A DNA stretch of 36,192 nucleotides from Spirochaetota bacterium (GTDB taxonomy: Bacteria; Spirochaetota; UBA4802; JAFGJZ01), in contig JAKPJF010000085.1 of NCBI GenBank assembly GCA_029554345.1, positions 1 through 36,192 on the forward strand, read 5' to 3'. Shown piece by piece: positions 6,983 to 33,157 of this stretch (position 1 is its first letter; every line of letters starts with the position of its first letter). The notes beneath the pieces were generated by a model. The model was not told the DNA's origin. It searched no databases and saw nothing but the letters and a program-made list of their open reading frames with translations. Made by a program: the position numbers and the translations under genes.

Positions 6983-7867
6983 TCACATCAGAAAAAGAAT
7001 TATCACGCCTGAAACAGCAAGAATAATTCCTAAAATTTCAGCAATGCGTACTTTCTTTTTTTCAAAAACAAAAGAAACAGGTATCAAAAGAACCGGAACG
7101 ATCGACATAATCGCCGATGCCACACCGACTTCAGTTTTAGATATTGCATACATTGAAAGACTTACTCCTGCAAACGGTCCGAGAAAAGAACCCATTGAAG
7201 CATATAGTAAACCTGACTGATTTCTGTAGGACAAAACAGATTTTTTCAGCCTTCCTGAAAAAATAAGTACAAGAGTAAATGATATAAATCCTGCGATTAC
7301 ACGGCATTGTGTCACATTCACAGCATTTATATTATTCATTCCTATTTTAGCGAGAATAAGCCCCGCACCCTGCGAACATGCTCCGATAACAGCAAATATT
7401 ATTCCGCCGAGAGGATGATGAATTTTAATTCTCTCTCCGTTTTTTTTGGTTAATACCGCAAGCGATATTCCTATAATAATTATGAGAACTGCAAGTATAT
7501 CCGTAATAGATAAAATTTCATCAAGAACTAAGTAACCTATAAAAGCAGATATTACCGGAGCGAGACTCATTATTAGCATTGATATCCGCGATCCGATTAT
7601 TTCAAAGGCCTTAAAAAGGAAATAATCACCGATGAAAAAACCGACAAACCCTGAAAGGGAGAGCCACATCCACGAAGAAGCTTCAACACCTACAGGAAAA
7701 GGATTTCCATATACAAAAAATGAAAATACTGACAGAAAACAAAATGCCATCAGAAGACGAAGAGGATTGAGTGCAAGCGAACCGAATATTTTAGCAGCTC
7801 TCTCAAACATCAATGCTGTGAATGTCCACACAATGGCAACTAAAAGCGAGGCCGTTTCACCCGACAT
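6983..7867 (-). CDS. EamA/DMT-superfamily transporter
   Basis: About 294 residues with ten hydrophobic helices arranged as two EamA repeats. The first repeat ends with SLAPVISAFIGYLVLDEILSI, and the second with SIVPVLLIPVSFVFEKKKV. The P-rich motif near the fourth helix of each half and the acidic residue after it are typical of drug/metabolite transporters. The substrate is unknown. The start at 7867 is chosen over 7900 because GGGGAG lies 5 nt before this ATG. First gene of the operon leading through the peptidase and efp, and divergent from the kinase gene at 7979. Confidence 0.9.
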   Translation of the reverse strand: MSGETASLLVAIVWTFTALMFERAAKIFGSLALNPLRLLMAFCFLSVFSFFVYGNPFPVGVEASSWMWLSLSGFVGFFIGDYFLFKAFEIIGSRISMLIMSLAPVISAFIGYLVLDEILSITDILAVLIIIIGISLAVLTKKNGERIKIHHPLGGIIFAVIGACSQGAGLILAKIGMNNINAVNVTQCRVIAGFISFTLVLIFSGRLKKSVLSYRNQSGLLYASMGSFLGPFAGVSLSMYAISKTEVGVASAIMSIVPVLLIPVSFVFEKKKVRIAEILGIILAVSGVIILFLM

Positions 7868-7934
7868 ATATACTCCCCAAAAGCTCTTTCTGCTTGCCAT
7901 TATTCGAAGGATGATAACAATTAGTAAAGTTTTT

Positions 7935-7946
7935 AAACTTAAGTTT
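7935..7946. promoter_or_regulatory. 12-bp perfect palindrome between divergent genes
   Basis: AAACTTAAGTTT is perfectly symmetric and lies in the 111-bp space between the EamA operon and srkA. A TATAAA box overlaps its right edge (7946-7951). It could be an operator, but AT-rich chance symmetry is possible. Confidence 0.3.
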
Positions 7947-7978
7947 ATAAAATAAAAAACTGTACCGAACGGAGAAAA

Positions 7979-8983
7979 ATGTCCGACAATTACTACTCTT
8001 TAAAACCTGAAACAATTCTTAAAGCGGCGGAAAAACTCAATCTGAATCCTACAGGACATATTCTTCAGCTCAATTCACTCGAAAACAGGGTTTATTCGCT
8101 ATATCTTGAAGACTCATCACAGGTTGTAATAAAAATTTACCGTCCTGGCAGGTGGAATGAAAACCAGATTCTCGAAGAACATTCATTCCTCAATGAACTC
8201 AAGGATGATGATATTCCCGTTTGTGCACCTTTAACATTTGAAGGAAAAACTCTACATTTCATTGATGATTTTATTTACACGGTTTTCCCGAAAAACGGCG
8301 GACGGATTCCGGATGAATTTTCTGATGATGATTTAATGATGATAGGACGGCTGATTGCACGTATTCACAATACTGGCAGACGGAAAAATGCAGTTCACAG
8401 AATAAAAATATGCCCTGAAACTTTTGTCAGAGCAAATCTTGATTTTATGGCACAAAAACAGCTGTTGCCTCAAAGATATCTTTCTGTTTATCATAGGCTT
8501 GCTGAAAAAATTACAACTGCCTTTGATGAAGCTTCAACTGACATGCCTTTTCACAGAATCCACGGAGATTTTCACTGGGGCAATTTGCTGAAAAGGGACA
8601 GCAGTTTTATCGTACTGGATTTTGACGATTTTGTTACGGGTCCGGCTGTTCAGGATATATGGATGCTTGCACCGGCAAGCGATGCCGAAGGACAGCGTAA
8701 AAGAGAAGCACTTCTCGAAGGCTACCGTGAATTCGCTGAATTCGACCGCACATGGCTGAATCTTGCTCCCGTACTCAAAGCTATGAGATTCATAAATTAT
8801 GCCTGCTGGATTGGAAAAAGATATGATGACCCGGCTTTCAAAAACGCTTTTCCTCACTACGGAACTGATAATTACTGGGAAAGTGAAATAAAGGATATTG
8901 AAGCAATACTTCTTGAAAGCGGGATTGAACCGGAATCTAAAAGCGAACTTCTTGAAAATAAGGAGTACTTTTTTGACATGTGA
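7979..8983 (+). CDS. srkA: SrkA-like stress response Ser/Thr kinase (YihE/RdoA)
   Basis: A 334-residue kinase of the APH/choline-kinase fold. The ATP-binding lysine is in VVIKIYRPGRW (K52). The catalytic loop is HRIHGDFHWGNLL (D197, N202), and the metal-binding motif is VLDFDDF (D214-D217). The RPGRW segment and the IWMLAPASD and YACWIGKR regions are specific to SrkA rather than to general APH enzymes. E. coli SrkA (328 aa) counters programmed death under stress; its substrates are poorly known. CGGAG lies 5 nt before the ATG. Divergent from the EamA operon; the HD phosphohydrolase follows 120 nt later. Confidence 0.93.
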   Translation: MSDNYYSLKPETILKAAEKLNLNPTGHILQLNSLENRVYSLYLEDSSQVVIKIYRPGRWNENQILEEHSFLNELKDDDIPVCAPLTFEGKTLHFIDDFIYTVFPKNGGRIPDEFSDDDLMMIGRLIARIHNTGRRKNAVHRIKICPETFVRANLDFMAQKQLLPQRYLSVYHRLAEKITTAFDEASTDMPFHRIHGDFHWGNLLKRDSSFIVLDFDDFVTGPAVQDIWMLAPASDAEGQRKREALLEGYREFAEFDRTWLNLAPVLKAMRFINYACWIGKRYDDPAFKNAFPHYGTDNYWESEIKDIEAILLESGIEPESKSELLENKEYFFDM

Positions 8984-9103
8984 AACTTTATCCCATTTGC
9001 TTTAGCACTAAAGATTACATAATTTATTCCTTGCTATTTTTTATACGTCAACTATTAGTGGAAATATCATCTGCAAATGATCTATTTTATAAGCGGAGGA
9101 ATC

Positions 9104-10024
9104 ATGGCAAATATAAGCAATCCCCAGCTTTGCACTCTAGTCGATCATACTTCTCCTGAAGCAGTTTTTGAAGAAGTAAAGGAAATTTTCTCTTACCATT
9201 ACGATCTGAAAACGTTTCAAATTGTTGAACGTTCTTTTGAAATATTGAAATCCCTTTTCAAAGGAGAGTTTGACGGTTATCAGAAGTGCAATACGGAGTA
9301 TCACGACCTGAACCATACTCTTGACGCTCTGCTCGCCTCCGCACGCCTTATGGACGGATTTAATATCTCCTCAGAATCAATTCTTTCTGAAGAAAGTGCG
9401 GTAGCTCTTCTTTTAGCTGTAACTTATCATGATTCAGGCTATATTCAAAAGTCAGACGACATAGACGGAACAGGTGCGAAATATACAAAGAATCACGTCG
9501 AAAGAAGCACTATTTTTGTAACTGCAAATAAAGATAAAATCGGAATAACTGCTCTAATGTCGGATGTAATATCCTCCTTGATAAGGTGGACCGGCCTCAG
9601 AAGCGATATGCCAGGCGAATCCGTTATGGGAAAAGATTACACTATTGCAGGATCAATCATCGGCACAGCAGATCTGCTTGGACAGATGTCTGACCGGGCA
9701 TATCTTGAAAAACTTCTTTTTCTTTACTACGAATTCAAAGAAGCCGGAATCGAAGGTTTTAATACGGAATTCGACATATTAAGAAAAACTCTGTCTTTTT
9801 ATTCAACTACTCAGGATAGACTGGACAGACAGCTCGGCAAGGTCTATGATTTAGCAAAAGTTCATTTTAACAAGCGTTTTGGAATACCATTCAATCTTTA
9901 CATGGAAGCTATTGATAAACAGATGCAGTATCTGAAAAAAGTTATTGATGATGAAAGCGTAAATTTCAGGCATAAGCTGAAAAGAATGGATATTGAAACA
10001 ATCGAACAGCATTATCTTTATTAA
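9104..10024 (+). CDS. HD-domain phosphohydrolase resembling class I cyclic nucleotide phosphodiesterases
   Basis: About 306 residues. The metal-binding histidines and aspartate are arranged as EYHDLNHTLDAL (H67, H71), AVTYHDSGY (H109-D110) and a further H131 in TKNHVERS. The YHxxxH motif followed about 40 residues later by HD resembles class I cyclic nucleotide phosphodiesterases more than plain HD proteins. The ATG at 9104 is chosen over 9077 because GGAGGAATC directly precedes it. No sensory domain is fused. The substrate is not known; cyclic nucleotide hydrolysis is only an inference from motif layout. A strong terminator follows at 10069. Confidence 0.8.
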   Translation: MANISNPQLCTLVDHTSPEAVFEEVKEIFSYHYDLKTFQIVERSFEILKSLFKGEFDGYQKCNTEYHDLNHTLDALLASARLMDGFNISSESILSEESAVALLLAVTYHDSGYIQKSDDIDGTGAKYTKNHVERSTIFVTANKDKIGITALMSDVISSLIRWTGLRSDMPGESVMGKDYTIAGSIIGTADLLGQMSDRAYLEKLLFLYYEFKEAGIEGFNTEFDILRKTLSFYSTTQDRLDRQLGKVYDLAKVHFNKRFGIPFNLYMEAIDKQMQYLKKVIDDESVNFRHKLKRMDIETIEQHYLY

Positions 10025-10115: not shown

Positions 10116-10186
10116 CATTTTAAATACTTCTTTACTTTTTGATGCAATATGATATCCGAAGGAAAACACTAATTCCGGAGGTCGTG

Positions 10187-12292
10187 ATGGTAAAGGAATA
10201 TTCTTCAGGCGATATCAGAAATATCGCAATCGTAGGTCATGCAGGTACTGGAAAATCTACTTTGTTCGATTCCCTTCTCTTCAATGGCGGAAAAATACAA
10301 AAAATAGGAAGTCATAATGATGATTCTCTTGTTTCCGATTTTGATATTGAAGAAAAGAAAAAAAAGATGTCAATCCACACATCTCTGGGATTCATTGAAG
10401 TTGACGGAATTAAGTTCAATATAGTTGACTGCCCCGGTCACGCGGATTTGATAGGAGAAAGGCGTGCAGCCATTCTTGCCTGCCAGGCTGCTATTATCGT
10501 CGTAGATTCCGTTGACGGTGTTCAAGTCGGAACAGAAAAAGTCTGGCGTTTTCTTGACGAGGAGAAAATTCCACGTATAATATTTATAAATAAAATGGAT
10601 CAGGACAGGGCCTCTTATTCGAAAATTATAGAAGAATTGAAAACCGAACTGCATGCAAATCTTGTTTCATTATGCATTCCTATTGGAGAAGGAAATTCTC
10701 TAAAAGGTGTTGTAGATATCATAAAAATGAAATCGCTGATACCGAAAGAAAACGGAAGCAGAGAAACTATAACCGGAGACATCCCGTCAGAATATTCAGC
10801 TGCCGTAAATGATGAACGTAAACACGGAGTTGAAATTGCAGCCGAAGGCGATGATGAATTGATAGAATTATTTCTTGAAGGAAAGGAATTTGACGAAGAA
10901 CTTCTAAAACGCGGCATAAAGGAACAGATAATCGACAACAAGCTTTTCCCTGCTATTTGCGGAAGCGCGATGAAGTCGATAGGTATCACAAGTCTCATAA
11001 GCCTAATTAAAAATTTCATGCCTTCTCCTGCAGAAAATTCAGAAACAAAAGCACTGGATCTTTCAAAAAATGCCGAAGAAATAAACATCAAAACTAATCC
11101 CAAAGAAAAATTCTCAGCTGTTGTATGGAAAACATACATTGACCAGTATGCCGGAAAATACAGCTTTGTCAGAGTAATATCCGGAGAACTGCTTCCCGAC
11201 AGTGAAGTCCTCAATACAGATTTTAATGAAATAGAAAGAATCGGAAAAATCTACACTATGATCGGAAAGGATATTCATGAAGTACCGAAACTTTCAACCG
11301 GAGATATCGGTGTGCTTCAGAAACTTGATAAAACTATTACTGCAAACACTCTGTGCGATCCGTCAAGACCTCTAAAAATACCGATGATTAAACTTCCTAG
11401 GCCGGTTTTCTCGTATGCTATTAAAACAAAGGATAAAAAAGACGAAGATAAACTTTCACAGATACTTACTAAATATGACGAACAATATCCGACTATAGAA
11501 TATTCTTACAATCCCGAAACAAAGGAAAGCGTGATTTCGGGAATGGGACAGCTTCATGTCGATTTAACTCTCGAAGAAGTGAAAGATAAATACAAAATTG
11601 ATTTTATCATCTCTCCGCCGCGTATAGCGTATAGAGAAACAATTACAAAACAGTCTGAAGCGCAATATAAGCACAAAAAACAAAGCGGCGGTCATGGTCA
11701 ATACGCTGAAGTATTCTTAAGAATTTCACCGATTGAACGAAGCAAAGGCTTTGAATTCAAGGAATCTATCGTCGGCGGAGCAATTCCGAAACAATATATT
11801 CCAGGTGTTGAAAAAGGAATCAAAGAAGCAATGGAAAGCGGAGTAATCGCCAAATATCCCGTAGTAGACATAAAAGCGGAACTATATGACGGATCATTTC
11901 ACGCAGTAGATTCGAGCGAACTTGCGTTTAAACTCGCGTCAGCAAGCGCTTTAAAAATGGCAATGCAGATTGCAAACCCTGTTCTTCTTGAACCGGTGAT
12001 GAACGTCAGGATTTATGTTGACAAACAATACATGGGTGATGTCATGAACGACATTACCGCACGTCGCGGAAAAGTTCTCAAAATGGAAGGAAAAGACGAA
12101 AACAGGGATTCGGGAATAAATGTTATTTCCGCCCAGATTCCTTCAGCGGAGCTTGTCAGGTACAGCATCGATCTTACGACTCTAACACAGAATAAGGCGA
12201 TGTTTGAAATGAGTTTTTCGCATTACGAACCAGTAACCGGGAAAATAGCCGAAAAGGTAATTGAAGAACGTAAAAAATATTTGGAAGAATGA
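10187..12292 (+). CDS. EF-G-like GTPase (secondary elongation factor G paralogue)
   Basis: A 701-residue translational GTPase with all five EF-G domains. G1 is GHAGTGKS (17-24), G3 DCPGHAD (81-87) and G4 NKMD (135-138). The canonical EF-G motifs GHIDHGKT and DTPGHVDF are replaced here, and the switch I region reads SDFDIEEKKKKMSIHTS instead of the usual AGITI-containing sequence. These traits mark the EF-G-2 type paralogue, not the main FusA. Domain IV keeps KQSGGHGQYAEVFL. Paralogues of this kind can have reduced or specialised ribosome function; its role here is not known. ATG 10187 has GGAGG 5 nt upstream, and the frame extends uselessly to 10139. It heads a three-gene operon with overlapping junctions. 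Confidence 0.9.
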   Translation: MVKEYSSGDIRNIAIVGHAGTGKSTLFDSLLFNGGKIQKIGSHNDDSLVSDFDIEEKKKKMSIHTSLGFIEVDGIKFNIVDCPGHADLIGERRAAILACQAAIIVVDSVDGVQVGTEKVWRFLDEEKIPRIIFINKMDQDRASYSKIIEELKTELHANLVSLCIPIGEGNSLKGVVDIIKMKSLIPKENGSRETITGDIPSEYSAAVNDERKHGVEIAAEGDDELIELFLEGKEFDEELLKRGIKEQIIDNKLFPAICGSAMKSIGITSLISLIKNFMPSPAENSETKALDLSKNAEEINIKTNPKEKFSAVVWKTYIDQYAGKYSFVRVISGELLPDSEVLNTDFNEIERIGKIYTMIGKDIHEVPKLSTGDIGVLQKLDKTITANTLCDPSRPLKIPMIKLPRPVFSYAIKTKDKKDEDKLSQILTKYDEQYPTIEYSYNPETKESVISGMGQLHVDLTLEEVKDKYKIDFIISPPRIAYRETITKQSEAQYKHKKQSGGHGQYAEVFLRISPIERSKGFEFKESIVGGAIPKQYIPGVEKGIKEAMESGVIAKYPVVDIKAELYDGSFHAVDSSELAFKLASASALKMAMQIANPVLLEPVMNVRIYVDKQYMGDVMNDITARRGKVLKMEGKDENRDSGINVISAQIPSAELVRYSIDLTTLTQNKAMFEMSFSHYEPVTGKIAEKVIEERKKYLEE

Positions 12293-13524
12293 TGCCTTTT
12301 AATATTCTCATAGCAGATTTTAACAAAGAAAATTATTATCCGCTTTCTCTCACGCGTCCCTTGTGGACGCTGAGGAGCGGATGCTTTGAACAGCACGAAA
12401 GATTCAGAAAACTTTTTCAGGACGATAAAAGGCTCACTTTTCTTGCCTCTGAAGAAATGTGTTCACTCTACAGCGATATCCGTACAACTTCAACTCTTCC
12501 TGCTGGAGAAGATATTCTCATAATCAATTCCCTTATGAATATTATTCCGGATATATCCGATTTAAACAAATCAGAAGTTTTTTACAACAGAAATGTTTTA
12601 GCATATGCATTCATTAAAAAAGATGATTTAATCAAAATCTCGGTTTCTAACGGATGCATCGAAAGTTTAACCGGTTTTTCTAAAAACATAACTGATATCA
12701 TTTTTCCAAAATATATCTGGGAAATACCTCTGATGAACGGAGAAATAATTAAAAATGATTTTAAATTTTTCTCTGAGAAATCAAACTGTAAAATAACAGT
12801 TTCCGGTCCTGAAAAATTATTCTATTGCTCAGATTCAGCCGAAATAGAACCATTCGTTTCGGTTTCAACTAAAAAAGGTCCTGTAATAATTGATGAGAAC
12901 GCAGAAATATCATCATTTTCAAGAATCGAAGGTCCGGCTTATATAGGCAAAAATACATGTATTTTCAGAGCAAATATAAGGGAAGGATCATCATTCGGAA
13001 TTTCCTGCAGAATCGGTGGAGAAGTTGAAGATTCCGTATTCAATTCATTTTCCAACAAATATCATGACGGTTTTATAGGTCATGCATATATTGGTTCGTG
13101 GGTAAACCTAGGAGCCATGACAACTAACAGCGATTTGAAAAATGATTACACAAATGTAAAAGTCAATTTAGATGGGAAACTACATGACAGTGAAAGCCCG
13201 AAAGTCGGCGCTGTTGTCGGTGATTTTGTAAAAACAAGCATAGGAACTCTAATCAATACCGGATCGGTAATAGGTTCGTGCTCAATGACTGTTTTTTCCG
13301 GCAGAATGACGCCTGATTTCATTCCACCTTTTTCGCTTTTTATCAAAAATAAACTCCGTAGTGCAAAATCATTTGATTCTGTTATTTCAACAATAAAAAC
13401 ACAAATGAGCCGCAGGGGATGTAACTTAAGCCCGGAACATAAGTCTATACTTAGAAATCTCTACGAAAAAACACTGAAGGATAATCTTCGGATATTTGAA
13501 GAATGGAACAAAAAACTGAATTAA
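12289..13524 (+). CDS. Alternative GlmU-like sugar-1-phosphate nucleotidyl/acetyltransferase
   Basis: About 411 residues matching the layout of the alternate bacterial GlmU family (TIGR03991 type). The N-terminal half begins FNILIADFNKENYYPLSLTRP and is a weak nucleotidyltransferase-like domain. The C-terminal half is a left-handed beta-helix with hexapeptide repeats and the hallmark HDGFIGHAYIGSWVNLGA and then TNSDLKNDYTNVKV. The likely role is UDP-GlcNAc (or related sugar nucleotide) supply for the envelope. The ATG overlaps the EF-G stop (ATGATGA); the second ATG at 12292 has better spacing to GGAAG. The gene overlaps the TonB-like gene by 22 nt. The function is assigned by family likeness, and the exact sugar is uncertain. 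Confidence 0.82.
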   Translation: MMPFNILIADFNKENYYPLSLTRPLWTLRSGCFEQHERFRKLFQDDKRLTFLASEEMCSLYSDIRTTSTLPAGEDILIINSLMNIIPDISDLNKSEVFYNRNVLAYAFIKKDDLIKISVSNGCIESLTGFSKNITDIIFPKYIWEIPLMNGEIIKNDFKFFSEKSNCKITVSGPEKLFYCSDSAEIEPFVSVSTKKGPVIIDENAEISSFSRIEGPAYIGKNTCIFRANIREGSSFGISCRIGGEVEDSVFNSFSNKYHDGFIGHAYIGSWVNLGAMTTNSDLKNDYTNVKVNLDGKLHDSESPKVGAVVGDFVKTSIGTLINTGSVIGSCSMTVFSGRMTPDFIPPFSLFIKNKLRSAKSFDSVISTIKTQMSRRGCNLSPEHKSILRNLYEKTLKDNLRIFEEWNKKLN

Positions 13525-14372
13525 ACTTAATAATACCGATAGCCATCTCTGCCGCGTTTCACGCTCTTGTAATCATTCTTTTTCTATACAATGGAATTGA
13601 CAGTGAACAAGGCCTTTTTGAAAAGATGCTTGCTGGTCAAAAATCCGGTGAAATGCGCGATGTTATAGTAAATATGAATCAGGATAATATCCTGAAACAG
13701 AATTATACTTTTCTATCAGATAAAGATTCGGCTGCAAAGGGCCATGTTACAAAAACAAAAGGCGATACATGGCTAAATAATTCAACTGATTTTAAAATTA
13801 GAGGAAAAGCCTATGCAGGACAGAGCCTTTCTGAACAATCAGAGGAAATTCTATCCGGAAATGATATATCAATAGGCATAATTCATAAAACGGCAGCACT
13901 TAGAGAAAATAATCAAAATCATACATCCGCTGAATTCGGCAACAGTGAGTGGACAAGAATACCAGATGCAAAGGGAATGAACAAATACAATTCTCTTTTC
14001 TTCAGCAATACCGGTCAATTTTCTTACAGCACCAAAAAATTCAAAAATTTTGAGTTTTTCAACAGAATGAAAAATAAAATCGCTTCAAACTGGTATCCTC
14101 CTTCTTTCGCGAATGCCGTAATAGGAAGAAACTCCGCAACAGGAAGAATACGACTCGGTCTTATTCCGTCACAGGAAGTTAAACTTTATTTTACACTTAA
14201 CCGTAACGGAGATGTTCTTGATGTAAAGGTAGTCGAATCAATGGGTAATTATTCTCTCGACGAATCCTGTACTGATTCGATTAGACTGTCAGGAAATTTC
14301 GGACAAGTTCCAGCAGATATTGAAGGGGAAATTATCGTTATCCCCTTCATCTTCGGTTACTATGTAAGATAA
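13503..14372 (+). CDS. TonB-like envelope protein
   Basis: 289 residues. A single N-terminal membrane anchor (LIIPIAISAAFHALVIILFL, about 9-28) is followed by a low-complexity periplasmic linker. A C-terminal domain (about 185-289) contains MKNKIASNWYPP, LYFTLNRNGDVLDVKVVESM and then LDESCTDSIRL, the pattern of TonB C-terminal domains. TonB proteins transmit proton-motive energy to outer-membrane receptors. Here the usual Pro-Lys/Pro-Glu-rich linker is missing, and no ExbB/ExbD lies nearby, so energy transduction is not assured. Starts inside the GlmU-like gene (22-nt overlap). Its TAA stop directly abuts the stop of the converging YihY gene. Confidence 0.75.
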   Translation: MEQKTELNLIIPIAISAAFHALVIILFLYNGIDSEQGLFEKMLAGQKSGEMRDVIVNMNQDNILKQNYTFLSDKDSAAKGHVTKTKGDTWLNNSTDFKIRGKAYAGQSLSEQSEEILSGNDISIGIIHKTAALRENNQNHTSAEFGNSEWTRIPDAKGMNKYNSLFFSNTGQFSYSTKKFKNFEFFNRMKNKIASNWYPPSFANAVIGRNSATGRIRLGLIPSQEVKLYFTLNRNGDVLDVKVVESMGNYSLDESCTDSIRLSGNFGQVPADIEGEIIVIPFIFGYYVR

Positions 14373-16658
14373 TTATCTGTTCGACAGAATTGTCTCAAGT
14401 GTTTCCTTACCGATAATACTGTCTCTTGAATCTTTTAGAGCCGAAAATTTATCTGAAAGATATTTTCCGAGGTCAGTATTTATTGCGTTTTGCGGCACAT
14501 TAAGATTGGCGTCAAAAAGAACATCAATTATAGCCGATACCGTTACTTTTCTTGAAGACGTTGCCGGAATAAAACATCCTTTTTCAGAAAGCATTATCAA
14601 TTTAGCCTTTAAAAAAATATCAGTCAGATCATTAACTTCATCAAGACTGTTCCCAGTGTTCTTTGCAAGATATTTCAATGAAGTATCGCCCTCTCCTCCC
14701 TCAAATCTTCCGAATATAAGAACTAAAAGTTTTATTCCATTGAATATTTTTACATGAGAATCCCGTTTACGCAGAAGTCTGACATTCTGATAAGATTCAG
14801 GATTCATCAAAGTATACGAAACCTGTGCTCCGAATAATAGAATAAGAGTCGATGAATATATTATAAGCAGAAATAATGGAATAGCTGCCAATGCTCCATA
14901 AATAGCAAACGTGCTGTTTGCAAAGGCTTTTACGTACACAATAAAAAGATAAATGAAAGCGACCCAGACCGCGCCGGTAAATGATGCTCCAATTGCAGCT
15001 GCTTTAAACGGAACATAGACATTAGGAATTACTTTATAAGCAAAAAGGAAAAATATCCAGATGAAAAGAAAAGGACCGAAAAACTTCAGAAGATAAATTA
15101 TAAAACTTGTACCTTTCGCTCCCTTCCATGTTCTTCCCGAGTCATCAGACCATACAAGTGAGCCCAGATCTCCAACCGCCCATAATCTTCCGTTGATATC
15201 CAGAAGAGAATTTATCTTATTCGTTCCTATAGAATTTTTTTTCCAAGTAGATCCTTTATTGTCGGAATAAAGAAGTATTCCTTTTTCTCCTGAAACAAAG
15301 ACTTCGGAAGAATCTTTTACAAGAATTGAACTGTAGTCATGTTTTTTAAACGATTTATCAGTCCATTTTTTTCCAAGATCATCAGAATACATGATTGTTC
15401 CCTGATTTCCAGCGATAAATGATGCAGCAGAAGAAAGCAATATCTTGTTCAAATTTGCCGGTTTTTTCAGTTTGGCTTTATTAACTTGTTCGGTTATCCA
15501 TGTTTTCCCGGCATCATCTGTAGACAATATATAACCGTTATCACATACTGCAGCTCCGCGTTCACCGTAAAATGAAATTGAATTTACATTATAATGAAAA
15601 TCAGCATTTGAAACCGTTATAAAGGTTTTCCATGCATCTTCAGTTCTAAAAATGTAACCCGAATCCGCGGCAATAAATCCCTTTTGCGAATCAATCATAA
15701 CTATTTCATTCAAATTTATTTTACCGAGACTTATGATATGCCAAGATAAGCCTGAATCATTTGTTTCAAGAATAATTCCGTCACGGCCGACAATCCATCC
15801 GGAAGTACCCTGAAACTCTATGTCATTATAATATTTCGTATCAAAATCAATACTAAGAACAGGTTCCTCTGACTCTTCCAACACACCTGAAACAGGATTA
15901 ACTTTATATAATCTTTGATTGTCAAAATCTATTGATTCCAAAGACAAATCAAAAAAAGAAGTTCCCCCCATGTTTGTAGCTATCTTTGATTTATCACCGA
16001 CTATCCAGATATCCGTTATATTTTTTGCATATATTGATTTATAGCTGGGATAAGTAAAAGCGGAAGAAATCTGAGTAGCAAGAGTCGTTCCTGATATAAG
16101 CAATATCGGCCCCAAAGTAAGTACAGCCCAATAATATATTATCTGCGTAATCAATGAACGCTGTTTATGCACGTTCCATATAGCGTTTAATGCCTTATCA
16201 AGAGTTCGAAGAACGGCTGTCGCAGAAAAAATCATAAAAACAGCACCGACACCCCCGATGCTTGCGGCATTGTCCACAATCTGACTGATTGCATTTAAAA
16301 GCGGATCAATATTAAGCTTCTGAAGATTATGATCAGAAAGAAAAACATTAATATCTTTGAACAGCTCATCCTTTTTTCCGCTTCCGATGTATGCAACAAA
16401 AGTTAAAGCCACCGTCAATGTCGGAATAAGAGAAACAAGAGTTGTGTATGCTATTGCGGAAGCATGGGTAAAACAGTCATCAGTAAAGAATTTATTTGTA
16501 GAAGAAACAAATATACGGACGGAATTTATAAGCTTTTTTTTAATTTTTCCGTTAAAAGAATCTATATCCATCATATTCTGTTCGCCGATAAATAGCGCAA
16601 TAAACGACTGGATTCGTTCTTTTACAGATTTTTTTTCCGTTTCCTGTTTTGACCTCAT
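14373..16658 (-). CDS. YihY/BrkB family membrane protein with inserted YCF48/BNR beta-propeller
   Basis: About 761 residues, compared with 280-450 for ordinary YihY proteins. The N-terminal half of the YihY core (about 60-200) has FTHASAIAYTTLVSLIPTL and then MIFSATAVLRTLDKALNAIW. The second half (about 518-625) has IPNVYVPFKAAAIGA and FAIYGALAAIPLFLLIIYSS. Between them, at about residues 208-515, lies a foreign domain with repeated Asp-box motifs: ETNDSGLSW, STDDAGKTW, YSDDLGKKW, YSDNKGSTW and WSDDSGRTW, plus WIVG/WAVGD strands, as in YCF48/HCF136 propellers. The C-terminal ~130 residues look like a winged-helix domain, known in long YihY proteins. With the N-terminus inside, the insert follows the third helix and would be extracytoplasmic. 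The frame is uninterrupted. ATG 16658 has GGAG 5 nt upstream; a GTG at 16664 is an alternative. The function is unknown. Confidence 0.85.
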   Translation of the reverse strand: MRSKQETEKKSVKERIQSFIALFIGEQNMMDIDSFNGKIKKKLINSVRIFVSSTNKFFTDDCFTHASAIAYTTLVSLIPTLTVALTFVAYIGSGKKDELFKDINVFLSDHNLQKLNIDPLLNAISQIVDNAASIGGVGAVFMIFSATAVLRTLDKALNAIWNVHKQRSLITQIIYYWAVLTLGPILLISGTTLATQISSAFTYPSYKSIYAKNITDIWIVGDKSKIATNMGGTSFFDLSLESIDFDNQRLYKVNPVSGVLEESEEPVLSIDFDTKYYNDIEFQGTSGWIVGRDGIILETNDSGLSWHIISLGKINLNEIVMIDSQKGFIAADSGYIFRTEDAWKTFITVSNADFHYNVNSISFYGERGAAVCDNGYILSTDDAGKTWITEQVNKAKLKKPANLNKILLSSAASFIAGNQGTIMYSDDLGKKWTDKSFKKHDYSSILVKDSSEVFVSGEKGILLYSDNKGSTWKKNSIGTNKINSLLDINGRLWAVGDLGSLVWSDDSGRTWKGAKGTSFIIYLLKFFGPFLFIWIFFLFAYKVIPNVYVPFKAAAIGASFTGAVWVAFIYLFIVYVKAFANSTFAIYGALAAIPLFLLIIYSSTLILLFGAQVSYTLMNPESYQNVRLLRKRDSHVKIFNGIKLLVLIFGRFEGGEGDTSLKYLAKNTGNSLDEVNDLTDIFLKAKLIMLSEKGCFIPATSSRKVTVSAIIDVLFDANLNVPQNAINTDLGKYLSDKFSALKDSRDSIIGKETLETILSNR
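15120..16043 (-). other. YCF48/BNR propeller insert within the YihY gene
   Basis: This is the DNA encoding the inserted domain (about residues 208-515 of the host protein). Five clear SxDxGxxW Asp-boxes and one degenerate one (RTEDAWKTF) recur at about 40-residue spacing, except for a longer first blade. The flanking YihY helices resume directly after WSDDSGRTWKG. The boundaries are approximate. Confidence 0.75.
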
Positions 16659-16729
16659 AAACACTCCGTATTATTGTAAATAATTATACTGAATAATTAA
16701 ATCAGAATTAAGCAAAAGATCTGATACAT

Positions 16730-25753: not shown

Positions 25754-26179
25754 TTATCTGCTTGTTAGAACTATTCCGCCAATCATGGCAAAAAGAGCAA
25801 AAGACTCGATGATTCCGGGAGAAATGAATGATTTTCCCGCCATAGAAGCCTTTTTTGAAACACCGAGAATCGCGGAACTGCAGGCTTTTCCCTGATAAAT
25901 CGCGCTAGCCATAAGCCCCAAACCGCATAATAGACCTATGCCGAATAATGATAATCCGGATATTTTAGACGGATCAACCTGGCTGAATAGAATCATTAAT
26001 ACAAATCCGTAAATTGTCTGGGAAGCCGGCATCGCCGAAAGACCGATCAAAAGACCATGTCCCTCGTCAGTTTTTGACATAACCCCGTGACAAGTCATAC
26101 CCGCGATTCCGCATCCGATAGAACTCCCCACAGCCCCTAGACCGAGAGGTAATATTGCTCCGAAAAGACTCAAATCCAT
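25754..26179 (-). CDS. atpK: V-type ATPase subunit K (proteolipid ring)
   Basis: A 141-residue double-hairpin proteolipid with four membrane helices that forms the rotor ring. The ion-binding glutamate is E125 (SPGIIESFALF) in the last helix; the first hairpin has no equivalent glutamate. SAMPASQTIYGF (S53, Q54) and IYQGKA (Q96) occupy the positions that, with the Glu, bind Na+ in Enterococcus NtpK (T64, Q65, Q110, E139), so Na+ coupling is likely. The start at 26179 is preferred over 26206 because GAGGTG lies 5-6 nt before it and the longer frame runs into atpI. Last gene of the operon, followed by the terminator. Confidence 0.94.
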   Translation of the reverse strand: MDLSLFGAILPLGLGAVGSSIGCGIAGMTCHGVMSKTDEGHGLLIGLSAMPASQTIYGFVLMILFSQVDPSKISGLSLFGIGLLCGLGLMASAIYQGKACSSAILGVSKKASMAGKSFISPGIIESFALFAMIGGIVLTSR

Positions 26180-26195
26180 TTTTTCACCTCGTTTT

Positions 26196-28028
26196 TTATT
26201 GCTCAAGCAGAGATTTTAACGGTTTATACGGCTTTCCGCCTCCGTCAAAACTCCACCTGTAATATTCCAGATAATTAAGCCTCAATCCGTGAATTACGGC
26301 ACTCATTATCGAAAGACCTAAATTTAATAGATGCCCTAGTATTGAAACAATAACAGCCAGCGCGACATAAAAACTACCCAAATCGGCCATTGAAGAAGCA
26401 ATGCCGTTAAAAGTCTGGGCAATAAGAGCACCGGAAAGACCAAGAGCGAATATTCGAAGATAGCTTAAAATATCCGAGAAAAACTGAACTCCGTTATAAA
26501 GTCCAAGAAGTCCGCCTGCAAAAATCTTTAAAGGATTTAATGATCCTGAACTCGTCAGAAAAACTACTCCGCCGCAGCAATATAGAATATATTTCTGAAT
26601 ATCCTGACCGGATTCTATGCCTGCGAATGAATTTCCGTAAAAGAAAAAATATGTCCATATTGCGACAATCCAAGCGATATTGGATAACGGAACAATAAAT
26701 GATTTCTCGCTGAAAATAAGCCTTAATGTTTTTAGAAAAAGTGAGAGCGAAATGTGAATCATTCCTATGATAATGGAAACTCTCATTGTATTATCAAGTG
26801 TCTCTTTATCAACACTTCCTGAATTAAAAAGCTTAAACTGAAGAAGTTTGCCGAATACCGGATTTGATTCAGTAACGCTGAAAAAGCTTCCTGTCATTAC
26901 ACCGTATGCAATCGTCGCTGTACTTAGAATAAACGCCATAGCAAGCATACGTTTAGCTTTAACACCGGGCTTCTTAACCTTGATAGCTGCATAAAGCGTT
27001 ACAAGAAAAAGAACTATTCCGTATCCGCCGTCACCCATAATCATTGCAAAAAATATAATGAATGAAAGAAAAACAAATGAAGAAGGATCCCAGTCTTTAT
27101 ATGACGGAGTGTCATAAAATTCGACCAGCTCCTGACCAACTCCCGAAAACTTTTTGTTTTTGATAAATGTCGGCGGAACTTCATCCGGCTCAGGCTCGAC
27201 AGAGCTTATAGAAACGGGATCTGATGCGACTGATTTTTCTAAAACAGAAAGCTCTTTCTCGGGAACCCACCCCTGATAAACAAAAACATCCCCCAAAGCC
27301 TCGACTGAAGAATAATATGCTTTTTCAAAATTATATCTGTCAAGTGCTGCGATATAAGCCTTGTAAATATCATTTTTAACTGAAGAAAATGATTTTATTT
27401 TTGAAAGAAGTTCAAAGGAATGTTTTTTGAGATATTCTATTTCTGATTCAATTTGAATTAAATCTTTTTCTATTTTTTGTTCAAGACAATTATCCAGATG
27501 GAGCTTCGACTTAGAAAAAGTCACAAAATAATGCCTCATAGCTTCATGCTTTATTTCAAAAACTTCGGCAGCACCGGAGAAATCAACCGTGTCTGCGAAT
27601 TTTGCCGGCACTTCCCAGAACTGGATAAAAACACCGCTTTTATTCTCGATATCTCTTATGTCATCTATCGAAAATTTTCCCCATACAGAAAGATCTTCCT
27701 TTTCATTAATGAGAACTTGAAGCTTTTCAGTCGAAGAAATAAAATCTTCATCAAGAGTCTTCAGTATAGAAATACCTTCTTCTATTGTTGAAAAAGAAAC
27801 TCCGGAAGGAATAATTTCTTTTTTTTCTTCTTCAATTCTGCATACCAGCTTATACAAAGAAAGGATCGATTCAGCTTCTGCGATATCGCTTTTATCAGTC
27901 TGTTTTTTCAGAATTGATCCTTTATAAGGTTCTATATGCAAAACGCCGGTTTTCTGAATCTTTTTTATAATTTCTTCTTTGGACTTTTCAGCACCAATAA
28001 GAAGAATTTTTTTCATCCGGTTGATCAT
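26196..28028 (-). CDS. atpI: V-type ATPase subunit I (stator, membrane a-subunit)
   Basis: 610 residues. The cytosolic N-terminal half (about 1-310) includes coiled-coil stretches such as EKDLIQIESEIEYLKKH. The C-terminal half has about seven to eight membrane helices. The essential arginine facing the rotor ring is R525 in DILSYLRIFALGLSG, and a second conserved basic segment is IHGLRLNYLEYYRW (R583). It forms the ion half-channels and links the stators to the ring. The ATG follows the atpD stop directly, with GGAGG 8 nt upstream. Confidence 0.95.
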   Translation of the reverse strand: MINRMKKILLIGAEKSKEEIIKKIQKTGVLHIEPYKGSILKKQTDKSDIAEAESILSLYKLVCRIEEEKKEIIPSGVSFSTIEEGISILKTLDEDFISSTEKLQVLINEKEDLSVWGKFSIDDIRDIENKSGVFIQFWEVPAKFADTVDFSGAAEVFEIKHEAMRHYFVTFSKSKLHLDNCLEQKIEKDLIQIESEIEYLKKHSFELLSKIKSFSSVKNDIYKAYIAALDRYNFEKAYYSSVEALGDVFVYQGWVPEKELSVLEKSVASDPVSISSVEPEPDEVPPTFIKNKKFSGVGQELVEFYDTPSYKDWDPSSFVFLSFIIFFAMIMGDGGYGIVLFLVTLYAAIKVKKPGVKAKRMLAMAFILSTATIAYGVMTGSFFSVTESNPVFGKLLQFKLFNSGSVDKETLDNTMRVSIIIGMIHISLSLFLKTLRLIFSEKSFIVPLSNIAWIVAIWTYFFFYGNSFAGIESGQDIQKYILYCCGGVVFLTSSGSLNPLKIFAGGLLGLYNGVQFFSDILSYLRIFALGLSGALIAQTFNGIASSMADLGSFYVALAVIVSILGHLLNLGLSIMSAVIHGLRLNYLEYYRWSFDGGGKPYKPLKSLLEQ

Positions 28029-28646
28029 TTATACCGCCTCCGGAAGATCTTTCTTCTCAAGCTTGTCTTTCGCAATTTTGGCATTACATATCGCTGCGAT
28101 TTCCTGATCTCCGAGAAATATCTTAATCTTTCTGATATTCTCCTTGCATTCTGGAATCATGCGCTTTTCAAAAAGATTAACCTTAATATTGGTCTGACGG
28201 AGCTCTTCTTCAAGCAGGGAAAGTTTTTCTTTGATAATCTTATATTTTTCGCGCAATGTGATCAGATCCTTAAATTCAACAACAGCTCGATCAAGCCAAA
28301 CCGGCGTAAAAAGATATGAATAATCAAGAATAGAAAAAGAAATGCTTTCAAACAGAGGAACCTCAACACCGGCAATGTTTTCCGATGTTTTTACTACTTC
28401 TTTTACTTTCACAATCGATGAAACAGAAAAAGGCAACGGTTGTGACAGCAATGCGCTCCATGAGCTCATGCTGTCGCAGACTTTCTGCATCTCTTTCATA
28501 ATGTCTTCAGCGCCCGTACGAACACCGTCAACTTCAACCTGAAGCTGCTGTTTTTTTAACTGCAAGGTCGGCAGATATTTAGTAAGCTGACCAAGAAGAT
28601 TCTTCTGTTTTTTTTGTTCAGTCTTGTTAAGCTTTATTTCAGCCAT
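28029..28646 (-). CDS. atpD: V-type ATPase subunit D (central stalk)
   Basis: 205 residues, almost entirely helical, with the family start (KLNKTEQKKQKNLLGQLTKYL) and a long antiparallel coiled coil formed by the two ends. It is the rotor shaft connecting the A/B head to the K ring. The length is normal. A GTGGAAG ribosome site overlaps the end of atpB, and the stop is followed immediately by the atpI start. The only central-stalk gene seen, because no F subunit gene is present. Confidence 0.93.
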   Translation of the reverse strand: MAEIKLNKTEQKKQKNLLGQLTKYLPTLQLKKQQLQVEVDGVRTGAEDIMKEMQKVCDSMSSWSALLSQPLPFSVSSIVKVKEVVKTSENIAGVEVPLFESISFSILDYSYLFTPVWLDRAVVEFKDLITLREKYKIIKEKLSLLEEELRQTNIKVNLFEKRMIPECKENIRKIKIFLGDQEIAAICNAKIAKDKLEKKDLPEAV

Positions 28647-28649
28647 ACA

Positions 28650-29951
28650 CTACTTCCACTTGCCGTACTTTTCTATCCACTCGGCCTTGAGACCAACTTC
28701 ATTTTTCGCAAAACATTCAGAAAGAATCTTCCAACCCAAATCAAGCTGTTCTTCTATATCAAGATTCACCGAAAGATCCATAAGATCGCGCTCGAACATT
28801 ACCGCATATTTAATGAGCTTTCTATCCCATTCACTGAGACGGAATCCCATCGATTCACGGTCTTTTGCTTTCTTTGCGTCAGCATAGAGTCTGATCATCG
28901 CATTTGCAAGGTCTCCGTGATCTTTTCGAGTAACTTTTCCCATTACCTGCTGTTTCAAACGCGAAAGAGAACCGAACGGATCAATTGCCCCGTTATGAAG
29001 ATAAAACTGACCCTCGGTGATGTATCCGGTATTATCGGGAACAGGATGTGTAACGTCATCTCCCGGCATTGTAGTAACCGCGATTACGGTAATCGAACCG
29101 GAACCGTCAATATCAACAGCCTTCTCATATCTCGATGCGAGATCCGAATACAATGATCCGGGATAACCGCGGTTTGAAGGAACCATTTCCATCGAAATCG
29201 AAATTTCCTTCTGGGCATCCGCGAAGGAAGTCATATCAGTTAAAAGAACCAGAACGTTTTTGTCTTTTACAGCAAACTGTTCAGCTACGGCAAGAGCCAT
29301 GTCCGGAACAAGAATACACTCAACAACCGGATCCGACGCGGTATGAATAAACATGGTCGTCTTTTCCATCGCACCGGTCTTTGTAAAATATCTATAGAAG
29401 AATTCATAATCGTCAAATTTAAGCCCCATACCTCCGAGAACGATAACGTCGGCGTCGGTCTGACTCGCGATACGCGCGAGAAGTTCATTATAAGGTTCGC
29501 CCGGAATTGAAAAAATAGGAATCTTCTGGCTTCTAACCAATGTATTGAACATGTCAATCATCGGAATATTCGTCTTAATCATTCGTTTCGGAACAATACG
29601 CTTCGATGGATTGAAAGAAGGTCCTCCGATTTCTACTTTCTCTTCCGCAACCTGAGCTCCGCCGTCAACAGGTTCACCGGCACCGTTAAACACTCGTCCG
29701 AGAAGAGAATCTCCGAAGGCTACCTGCATAGGCTTTGAAAGAAAACGCGTCTGATCACCGGTCGACACACCTCGTGTTCCGCGGTAAATCTGGAGATTAA
29801 CCTTATCTCCGCTGAAACTGATTACTTCCGCAAGAGTACTTCTTCCGTCTCTGAGCTTAATCTCCGCAAGCTCGCCGAGCTTAACGCCTTCCGCGCGTAC
29901 CTGAGCGATGCTTCCTTTAACTTTTTCTATGCTGTTATATGTCTTAATCAT
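28650..29951 (-). CDS. atpB: V-type ATPase subunit B (regulatory head subunit)
   Basis: 433 residues. The non-catalytic B subunit keeps the beta-barrel N-terminus ([19 protein letters not shown]) and the nucleotide-like central domain, where the P-loop is replaced by [18 protein letters not shown]. The segments [18 protein letters not shown] and [18 protein letters not shown] are typical. With A it builds the hexameric ATPase head. It is separated from atpA by one nucleotide. Confidence 0.96.
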
Positions 29952-29952
29952 A

Positions 29953-31707
29953 TTAAGCTCCTCTCACAGTAGCAAGAATGGACTCACGTTTGCGTTTATA
30001 ATCGTCAGTTTCTTTTGCAATATAGTTCAGCTGAATCAGATCATCCGAAAGCGAAAGAAAAAACTTTCTGGCATCTTCTTTAGACTGAAAGCTGAATTTT
30101 TTTCTGAGAACTTCTCCGACAACTTCAAGCTGTTCATTCTGGCGTTTTCTATCAGAAGACGTGTCAATGCTGTCAAAGGCATTCTGCTGTAGAAAAACCG
30201 AATCGTAAAACTCGCCTTTAAGAAAAACTACCATATCATCGATGCTGACGCCTTCTTCGCCGACAACGCTCATCTTCTTTCCGATTTCGTCGCCTTCAAG
30301 AATCATCGACTGCGCAAGACGTACCACATCTATACGAGCCTTAGTTTCGGAATCGGCTTCATCATAAAAGCGGTCAAGATACTTCGACCATGAAATCAAA
30401 GGATCAATCGCCGGGAATCTTCTCGCATCTGAACGTTCACGCGACAGACCAAGGAAACATCCGACAACCGCAAGAGTTGACTGGGTTACCGGTTCTTCGA
30501 AATTTCCGCCCGCAGGAGAAACGGCACCGCCTATTGTAAGTGAACCGGTATCACCGGCAGGATTTTTCAATACGCCCGCTCTTTCATAAAATTCCGCGAT
30601 CCGGCTCGCGAGATACGCAGGGAAAGCTTCTTCGCCCGGAATTTCCTCAAGACGTCCGCTCATCTCACGAAGAGCCTGAGCCCAGCGGCTTGTAGAATCC
30701 GCAAGAAGAAGAGTATCGACTCCCATCTGTCTATAATATTCCGCAATCGTTGTTCCAACGTAAATAGAACTTTCGCGCGCCGCAACCGGCATCGACGAAG
30801 TATTACAAATGATACAGGTTCTATCCATGAGCTTTTTGCCTGTCTGCGGGTCATCAAGATGAGGGAATTCTTTTAGAATTTCAACGACCTCACCTGCACG
30901 CTCACCGCACGCAACGACTATAACTACCTGAGTTTCTGCATATTTGGATATCTGGTGCTGAAGTACCGTTTTGCCGGCACCGAAAGGTCCAGGAGTACAG
31001 AATGTTCCGCCCTTCGCAACCGGAAAAGGTCCGTCAACAATTCGGCATTTCGTAAAAAGCTGTTTATCAGGGAAAAGTCTTGTTCCGACTTTAATTGGAA
31101 ATTTCGCCGGCCATTTCTGAACCATCGTCACTTCTGTTATCTTCCCGGATTCATCCTGAAGCTTAGCTATAACTTCATTTATGGTATAGCTTCCGGCAGG
31201 TTTAATTTCTATTACTTTTGCATTGCCGTTAAAACCGAACGGCACCATTATTTTGTGATCTATAACCGCTTCAGGAACACGCCCGAGATATGACGCGGCG
31301 GATACAGTGTCGCCGGTTTTTGCTATCGGGGTAAAATCCCATTTTTTTGACTGATCAAGAGGTGCGAGATAAACACCGCGGGGGAGGAAATATCCGTTTT
31401 CTTCTGCTATCTTTTCAAGTGGATTCTGAAGTCCGTCATATACATTCTGCAAAAGACCGGGCCCGAGTTCTACCGAAAGAAGTTCAGAAGTAAATTCAAC
31501 TGCGTCACCGCATTTTACTCCTCTTGTAGGCTCGAATATCTGAACCTTGGCTTTTCTGCCGTCGATTTCGATTACTTCACCTTTGAGATTTTTACCTCCC
31601 GTAGAAAGGTAGACAACCTCATTTTGTCTTATAATTCCTTCGAACTCAACCGTCATCAGGTTTCCCTGTGCTCCGGCAATAATTCCCTTTGCTTTTTCTG
31701 AACTCAT
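29953..31707 (-). CDS. atpA: V-type ATPase subunit A (catalytic)
   Basis: 584 residues. The Walker A is GPFGAGKT (240-247), preceded by the A-specific non-homologous insert (about 100-195, [14 protein letters not shown]). [20 protein letters not shown] holds the catalytic glutamate region, and [20 protein letters not shown] is the Walker B-adjacent signature. This is the ATP-hydrolysing or ATP-synthesising subunit. It begins 15 nt after the DUF2764 gene, and all expected catalytic residues are present. Confidence 0.97.
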
Positions 31708-31722
31708 TACAGAATCTCCTGT

Positions 31723-32520
31723 TTATCCTTTGATAATATCATCAAGGAATTTCCTTCCCTTTTCTTCGTTAAGGTAGTTCCATCTGTCTTTTACAAAAAG
31801 CCCGATCAGATAATTATAAATAATATGTTCTCCGAAAGGCGACTCCTGACCTACGTTTCCGACCAGATCAAAATGAACTCTGTCAAAACGCTTTTCAAGC
31901 TCAGCAGGTTCCAGATTGAACATGTCGATTAATTCCGTTATCTCGTATATCTCGGATTTTAATCCGAGATCGGGAGAAGTCCTGTTTTCAATAATCGTTT
32001 TAACAATATCTGGATCTCCTTTCAGGTTTCCCTCAAGAGGTATTGAAAGCTTTATAAGACGGTATGCAGCAATAGCAGTTCTGAAAATGCCGGCTATTCT
32101 TCCGTAATATCTAAAAAACGGCATTTCATCTGCGTGCAAATAGGCAAAATATCTTACATATAATTCTTCTATATTTGCATAACGGTCGGAATCTTCCTTG
32201 AAATCTTCAAAGAAATCCGTCATAAACTGCGGAAAATGATCCGGCTGAAAAATCACCGGATTATCGAGAAAACGCTCGAATTCAGGTCTTGTCATTATTG
32301 AAGGAGTAAAAAAATCGCCAGCCGGATTTCCGGAAATCCTTTCAGAAAGCAACAGTTCCGCGTTCATAATTTCATTATGAAGAAGAATCTTCGCTATACC
32401 TTCGGAATAAGGCTCAAAAATATTTGAATTGGCTTCAAGAAATTCCGCCATCGTTTCCGGCTGCGGAGAATCCCAAGAAATTTCGGGAAGCCATCCTACT
32501 ACAAAATTATTATAGCTCAT
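31723..32520 (-). CDS. DUF2764 protein of the V-ATPase operon
   Basis: 265 residues starting MSYNNFVVGWLPEISWDSPQ. It matches the DUF2764 family, which sits between the E and A genes in V-ATPase operons of spirochaetes, Chlamydiae and Bacteroidetes. It is soluble and mainly helical, with many aromatic residues and no membrane segment. Its end (FVKDRWNYLNEEKGRKFLDDII) contains an RWxxL segment suggestive of a protein contact. As the operon lacks a recognisable C subunit, which bridges stalk and ring, DUF2764 is a candidate replacement; that is inference. It overlaps nothing and is one nucleotide from atpE. Confidence 0.88.
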   Translation of the reverse strand: MSYNNFVVGWLPEISWDSPQPETMAEFLEANSNIFEPYSEGIAKILLHNEIMNAELLLSERISGNPAGDFFTPSIMTRPEFERFLDNPVIFQPDHFPQFMTDFFEDFKEDSDRYANIEELYVRYFAYLHADEMPFFRYYGRIAGIFRTAIAAYRLIKLSIPLEGNLKGDPDIVKTIIENRTSPDLGLKSEIYEITELIDMFNLEPAELEKRFDRVHFDLVGNVGQESPFGEHIIYNYLIGLFVKDRWNYLNEEKGRKFLDDIIKG

Positions 32521-32521
32521 T

Positions 32522-33157
32522 TTAATTACCGAAAAGATATTTTCTCATCTCAGAACGAAGCTGATCAGAGAGAAGAGACGCTACCGATTCATCAGAGAAT
32601 TCGAGTGAAAGTTTTTTATCCTTAAGGTAAAGAGAAAATCCGCCCGAAATTTTCGAATCGGACAATGAAAGTTTTTTTTCGGCTGATTTAGCTATTTCGC
32701 TTTTCACAAAATCAGAAAGAGATTTTTTTAGATCATCAGATAAAACTATCTCCGCTTCATCCTTGTTGCCGGAAGAAACATACGCCTTTATCAATTCGGA
32801 TACAAGAGGTTTTATTACATCAGCGGAAGACAGAGCGGATTTTACGGAAAGATCTGCCGCGTTTTTTAAAAGTTCATTTTCAATCGCCGATTTCAGAACA
32901 TCAAGCGCCTTTTTTGAAGCAATTCTTAAAGCGGATTCCAATGTCGCTTCTTCATGCTTTGCCTTTACCTTTGCGTCATCCAAAAGTTTCGCTGCTTCGG
33001 CACGCGCATCTGCAATAATTTTATCGGCATCGGCTTTAGCGGAAGCGATAATGGCGGCTTTTTCGCTTTCTGCCGGATTTATCACACTTGATTTGAGATA
33101 ATCGGATATATTTTTTATTTTGTCCTCGAAAGAACCTGAAAGAGAGACAGAACTCAT
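32522..33157 (-). CDS. atpE: V-type ATPase subunit E (peripheral stalk)
   Basis: 211 residues. The N-terminal half is an Ala/Lys/Glu-rich long helix (AKADADKIIADARAEAAKLL, about 40-100), as in peripheral-stalk E subunits. The C-terminal half is a small alpha/beta domain (IVLSDDLKKSLSDFVKSEI and ISGGFSLYLKDKKLSLEFSD) that caps the head. First gene of the operon, with AAGGAG upstream of the ATG and a promoter at 33213-33185. No separate G/H partner gene is seen. Confidence 0.88.
   Translation of the reverse strand: MSSVSLSGSFEDKIKNISDYLKSSVINPAESEKAAIIASAKADADKIIADARAEAAKLLDDAKVKAKHEEATLESALRIASKKALDVLKSAIENELLKNAADLSVKSALSSADVIKPLVSELIKAYVSSGNKDEAEIVLSDDLKKSLSDFVKSEIAKSAEKKLSLSDSKISGGFSLYLKDKKLSLEFSDESVASLLSDQLRSEMRKYLFGN

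Follow-up and report, generated by a model that had tools for sequence, protein, structure and literature searches.

A BrkB/YihY protein interrupted by a propeller

The 36,192-nucleotide stretch of Spirochaetota DNA analyzed here (the window) encodes a BrkB/YihY membrane protein whose six-helix core is split after the third transmembrane (TM) helix by a YCF48-like propeller, predicted to have seven blades and to lie in the periplasm. The gene is a single uninterrupted frame on the minus strand, with an ATG at 16658 and a GGAG ~6 bases upstream; an in-frame GTG at 16664 falls within the GGAG region. It is single-copy in its genome (G000). An earlier sequence-only reading had proposed the same uninterrupted frame and the same split of the core after the third helix. 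The start site bears out its coordinates, and Pfam and AlphaFold2 agree on the split. That reading overlooked the C-terminal winged-helix domain. The features are as follows:

14373..16658 (-): whole gene, 761 aa; BrkB/YihY core, putative periplasmic seven-bladed propeller, and C-terminal winged helix
16059..16526 (-): N-terminal half of the BrkB core, residues 45-200 (TM1-TM3); PF03631 stretch 60-202
15105..16058 (-): inserted YCF48-like seven-bladed propeller, residues 201-518; PF14870, AlphaFold2, and Foldseek
14805..15104 (-): C-terminal half of the BrkB core, residues 519-618 (TM4-TM6); second PF03631 stretch
14388..14759 (-): C-terminal winged-helix domain, about residues 634-757, presumably cytoplasmic; profile match and model
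13503..14372 (+): convergent neighbor, membrane-anchored, with a TonB C-terminal-like domain; TonB_C E 2.3e-4, just below the Pfam cut-off

Pfam searches matched BrkB (PF03631) in two stretches (E=1.6e-44; 153 bits against a cut-off of 33.7) and YCF48 (PF14870) in four (E=6.2e-23; 81.9 bits against a cut-off of 27). The score for TIGR00765 was also above its cut-off (108 versus 73.15 bits). Hydropathy and AlphaFold2 both give three hydrophobic helices upstream of the insert and three downstream, for six TM helices. Six Asp-box motifs, with first residues 299, 339, 380, 425, 465, and 504, span positions 299-511.

Predicted structure and topology

The AlphaFold2 model used here was built from a 103-sequence alignment of fused and unfused BrkB proteins (mean pLDDT 89.5, pTM 0.77). 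It supersedes an earlier model from 23 orthologues, in which the propeller was confident and the core poor. Helices at residues 62-91, 118-160, and 169-201 precede the propeller, and helices at 519-543, 551-581, and 588-618 follow it. The prediction, which could have shown no propeller, yielded one of seven blades at residues 206-514 with pLDDT mostly 92-98. Five to six Asp-box repeats had been counted from the sequence alone; six are present, but the blades number seven, since blade 1 lacks the motif. Linkers of about four residues join the end of TM3 (201) to the first strand (206) and the last strand (514) to TM4 (519) in the model, and their shortness suggests that the propeller is probably mounted rigidly on the TM helices. 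The best PDB match of the propeller was YCF48, both by sequence and by Foldseek (5ojr, E 5.8e-16, target TM 0.74-0.75), and VIA-align gave Z of about 27-28 against many seven-bladed propellers.

The N-terminal tail carries a net charge of +10 on average across the order, and the TM2-TM3 loop, the TM4-TM5 loop, and the C-terminal tail are positively charged. By the positive-inside rule, this distribution points to a propeller outside the cytoplasm, in the periplasm, which is where the sequence-only reading had put it.

The winged helix occupies about residues 634-760 in the model (pLDDT mostly 79-96). Its profile matched the Rrf2-family chain 4cic_A (E 1.7e-4), and the window protein has no Pfam Rrf2 match. 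The predicted recognition helix has a mean net charge of -2.3 over 23 sequences; given this acidity, the domain is less likely to bind DNA than to make protein contacts. Several propeller-less BrkB proteins have a C-terminal domain that matches the same Rrf2-like profile, and the winged helix was therefore not acquired together with the propeller.

Distribution and evolutionary history

Matches to the protein were found in 49 of 59 relatives, and 30 full-length orthologues, the window's own counted in, were retrieved throughout its order of Spirochaetota. Identity to the window protein is 38-43% among 22 aligned orthologues, and named records sharing these contigs belong to Spirochaetes/Spirochaetota MAGs. 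A survey of 393 genomes of the phylum identified full-length fusions in five families outside the order (f11, f22, f38, f41, and f34). In f34 the propeller match is weak, BNR/YCF48 hits are present, and the insert is 358-419 residues long. One fused BrkB gene (L033 in G039, near 7204-9836) is broken into three frames, either as a pseudogene or through sequencing errors. An assembly chimera or annotation artefact has a negligible probability: dozens of relatives, from independent assemblies of many genera, carry the identical fusion and insertion point, and the architecture is neither unique nor an artefact. A viral origin was also considered and set aside, as a scan of viral contigs for close relatives returned none. 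No account of the fusion, or of YihY in Spirochaetes, was found in the literature searched, and the fused architecture is apparently new to it.

Searches with a fused profile gave no joined core-propeller match in 198 Bacteroidota and 200 Pseudomonadota genomes, where core or propeller matches were separate only; this negative covers the two sampled phyla, and others could still carry fusions. Absence was judged from these fused-profile surveys and not from the PF03631 surveys, in which all of the matches listed were uninterrupted and split matches are possible among the unlisted ones. The sample drawn for the phylum of G394 duplicated the one for G395, and the two were treated as one phylum.

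Outside Spirochaetota, the BrkB core halves (TM3 and TM4) are separated by 14-35 residues, compared to ~316 inserted in the window protein. The earlier claim that a large inserted domain is not normal for YihY proteins thus holds for every non-spirochaete relative measured. Within Spirochaetota, Brachyspira-type BrkB proteins (574 aa, L178:6966-8690 in G130, a genome we take to be Brachyspira; likewise L179 and L180) also have a large extracytoplasmic insert together with an Rrf2-like C-terminus. Their insert differs in length (~150 residues) and position (between TM5 and TM6) and gives no propeller match. It appears to be a second case in which a loop outside the cytoplasm was enlarged, independent of the first.

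On a tree of 99 sequences constructed from the membrane core alone, the fused state requires 2 changes, compared to 32.6 in shuffles. The simplest reading is that the phylum gained the propeller once, anciently, and that one lineage later lost it; Brachyspira and f34 sit on long branches of this tree, and their positions are unsure. The loss is seen in G031, where an intact frame of 468 aa lacks the propeller alone and joins TM3 almost directly to TM4, with the locus and neighbors unchanged. This is a clean propeller loss with the frame preserved. Pairwise distances of core and insert are correlated across all fused proteins (r=0.93) and within the order (r=0.78; 0 of 2000 permutations within the order as high). 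Core and propeller have therefore descended together vertically, without exchange of propellers between cores.

Sequence conservation

Mean column identity is 0.74 in the N-terminal core half, 0.78 in the C-terminal core half, and 0.54 in the propeller, where the invariant positions are mostly structural (Gly, Trp, and Asp-box residues). An arginine patch of Ycf48 contacts D1; the orthologue alignment contains no invariant arginine in the propeller, and no patch conserved for other than structural reasons was found there. The BC and CD loops, the most conserved, were considered as a functional face, but both house structural glycines and Asp boxes, and nothing was concluded from them. A blade 1 motif around D244, N247, and Q248 is nearly invariant and may, as a guess, be a candidate functional site.

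Comparison with known proteins

The window protein has in common with the YihY/BrkB family (E. coli YihY and YhjD, Bordetella BrkB) a six-helix core matched in two stretches, and a C-terminal extension is found in many relatives too. Cut-offs of the equivalogs PRK01637 and PRK04214 are not reached, nor is that of E. coli YhjD (TIGR00766; 29.8 bits versus 213.65). The channel-like core suggested by the sequence-only reading is unsupported here. YCF48/HCF136 (PF14870; PDB 2xbg, 5ojr, and 8am5) likewise has a seven-bladed Asp-box propeller. YCF48 is a separate lumenal lipoprotein (PMC8038367), whereas the window propeller lies between membrane helices. The relation to YCF48/HCF136 proposed earlier stands as kinship of fold and sequence, but the protein scores 80.3 bits against a cut-off of 326 for the Ycf48 equivalog NF010237, and any photosystem link would be that kinship only.

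E. coli YhjD is reported to bind LPS, to co-purify with LptB, and to interact genetically with lptBCFG (PMC3219608). Neither LpxC nor LptF/G was detected in the window's genome, an absence that is strong but not absolute at 96% completeness, and the same was true of 17 of the 21 further members of the order that were examined. Both are present in 4 of the 22 members examined (G004, G007, G011, and G016), and LPS genes seem patchy within this one order. Fused relatives outside the order have LpxC and LptF/G.

Possible functions

Of the genomes sampled, 358 of 395 from Bacteroidota and 323 of 398 from Pseudomonadota encode BrkB/YihY proteins, a very widespread family whose function is unsettled. 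For the fused protein, we tentatively favor an LPS-independent envelope role in which the propeller would form a rigid docking platform or cap above the periplasmic side of the core and bind a periplasmic partner or client. The more conserved core would do the membrane work, most likely by acting on a lipid, or on a substrate linked to one, other than LPS. Such a substrate is suggested by analogy with a distant paralogue: YhjD, the best-studied member, reportedly binds LPS and has genetic links to lipid A transport (PMC3219608). We infer independence from LPS because the fused protein persists without LpxC and LptF/G, and its occurrence in genomes where these are undetectable argues against an LPS-only role of the BrkB family. 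More broadly, the fusion could represent an envelope system of Spirochaetota with a periplasmic partner built into a membrane protein, in which BrkB has an LPS-independent function, for example with another envelope lipid, and the propeller is the docking site; this we regard as rather doubtful.

Two alternatives had been raised by the sequence-only reading, an assembly factor and an envelope receptor. As an assembly factor, the protein would work like YCF48: in the periplasm its propeller would bind membrane proteins that are nascent or not yet assembled and so promote the building of an envelope complex, and the BrkB core would anchor it in the membrane. Propellers often bind peptides, and the closest solved relatives of this one are structures of YCF48, one of them with a D1 peptide. 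A mere anchor would not be expected to be conserved more than the propeller, however, and G031 dropped the propeller and kept the core; together with the missed Ycf48 cut-off and a window in which no photosynthesis gene was noticed, these observations make an assembly factor somewhat unlikely. A transmembrane receptor, in which ligand sensing by the propeller in the periplasm is relayed by the cytoplasmic winged helix, possibly to DNA, would fit a single chain with an extracytoplasmic ligand-type domain and a cytoplasmic Rrf2-like domain. It is improbable given the acidity of the recognition helix, the Rrf2-like C-terminus of several propeller-less BrkB proteins, which was not acquired with the propeller, and linkers short enough to suggest a cap and not a tethered sensor. 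An accessory role in LPS export, as reported for YhjD with its LPS binding and LptB co-purification (PMC3219608), is compatible with the LpxC and LptF/G of fused relatives outside the order. Given the lack of detectable LpxC and LptF/G in the window's genome and in most fused-protein genomes of the order, a YhjD-like role is very improbable in this organism. The built-in propeller offers a soluble handle for fishing out a partner, and G031 is a natural propeller-less relative ready for comparison.

Genomic neighborhood

The TonB_C-like gene adjoins the BrkB gene across families f1-f7 of the order and is retained in G005 and G035 despite not adjoining it. Its product is a possible partner of the fused BrkB, for which this pattern is suggestive only. 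Both genes are absent from G007, G033, G041, G032, and G044; co-loss was not taken as a link, because the genes are usually adjacent and not all of the assemblies are complete. The contig of G022 ends at the TonB_C-like gene, on the very side where BrkB would come next, and the absence of BrkB there is probably due to the contig break. The recurrent context within the order is limited to this convergent block, in which NTP_transf_4 and an EF-G-like gene come after the TonB_C-like gene. Neighbors in other families include methyltransferases, a pseudouridine synthase, SecA, and others. Synteny pointed to no operon partner: neighbors outside the order vary by family and indicate no common pathway.

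Within the window, the stop codons of the BrkB and TonB_C-like genes abut at 14370-14375 with zero bases between them, and no terminator-like site was found at this junction. The EF-G-like GTPase of the conserved block (10139-12292, 717 aa) is possibly a second EF-G paralogue. A run of V-type ATP synthase-like genes, judged by eye from translations, extends over 25754-33157 on the minus strand.
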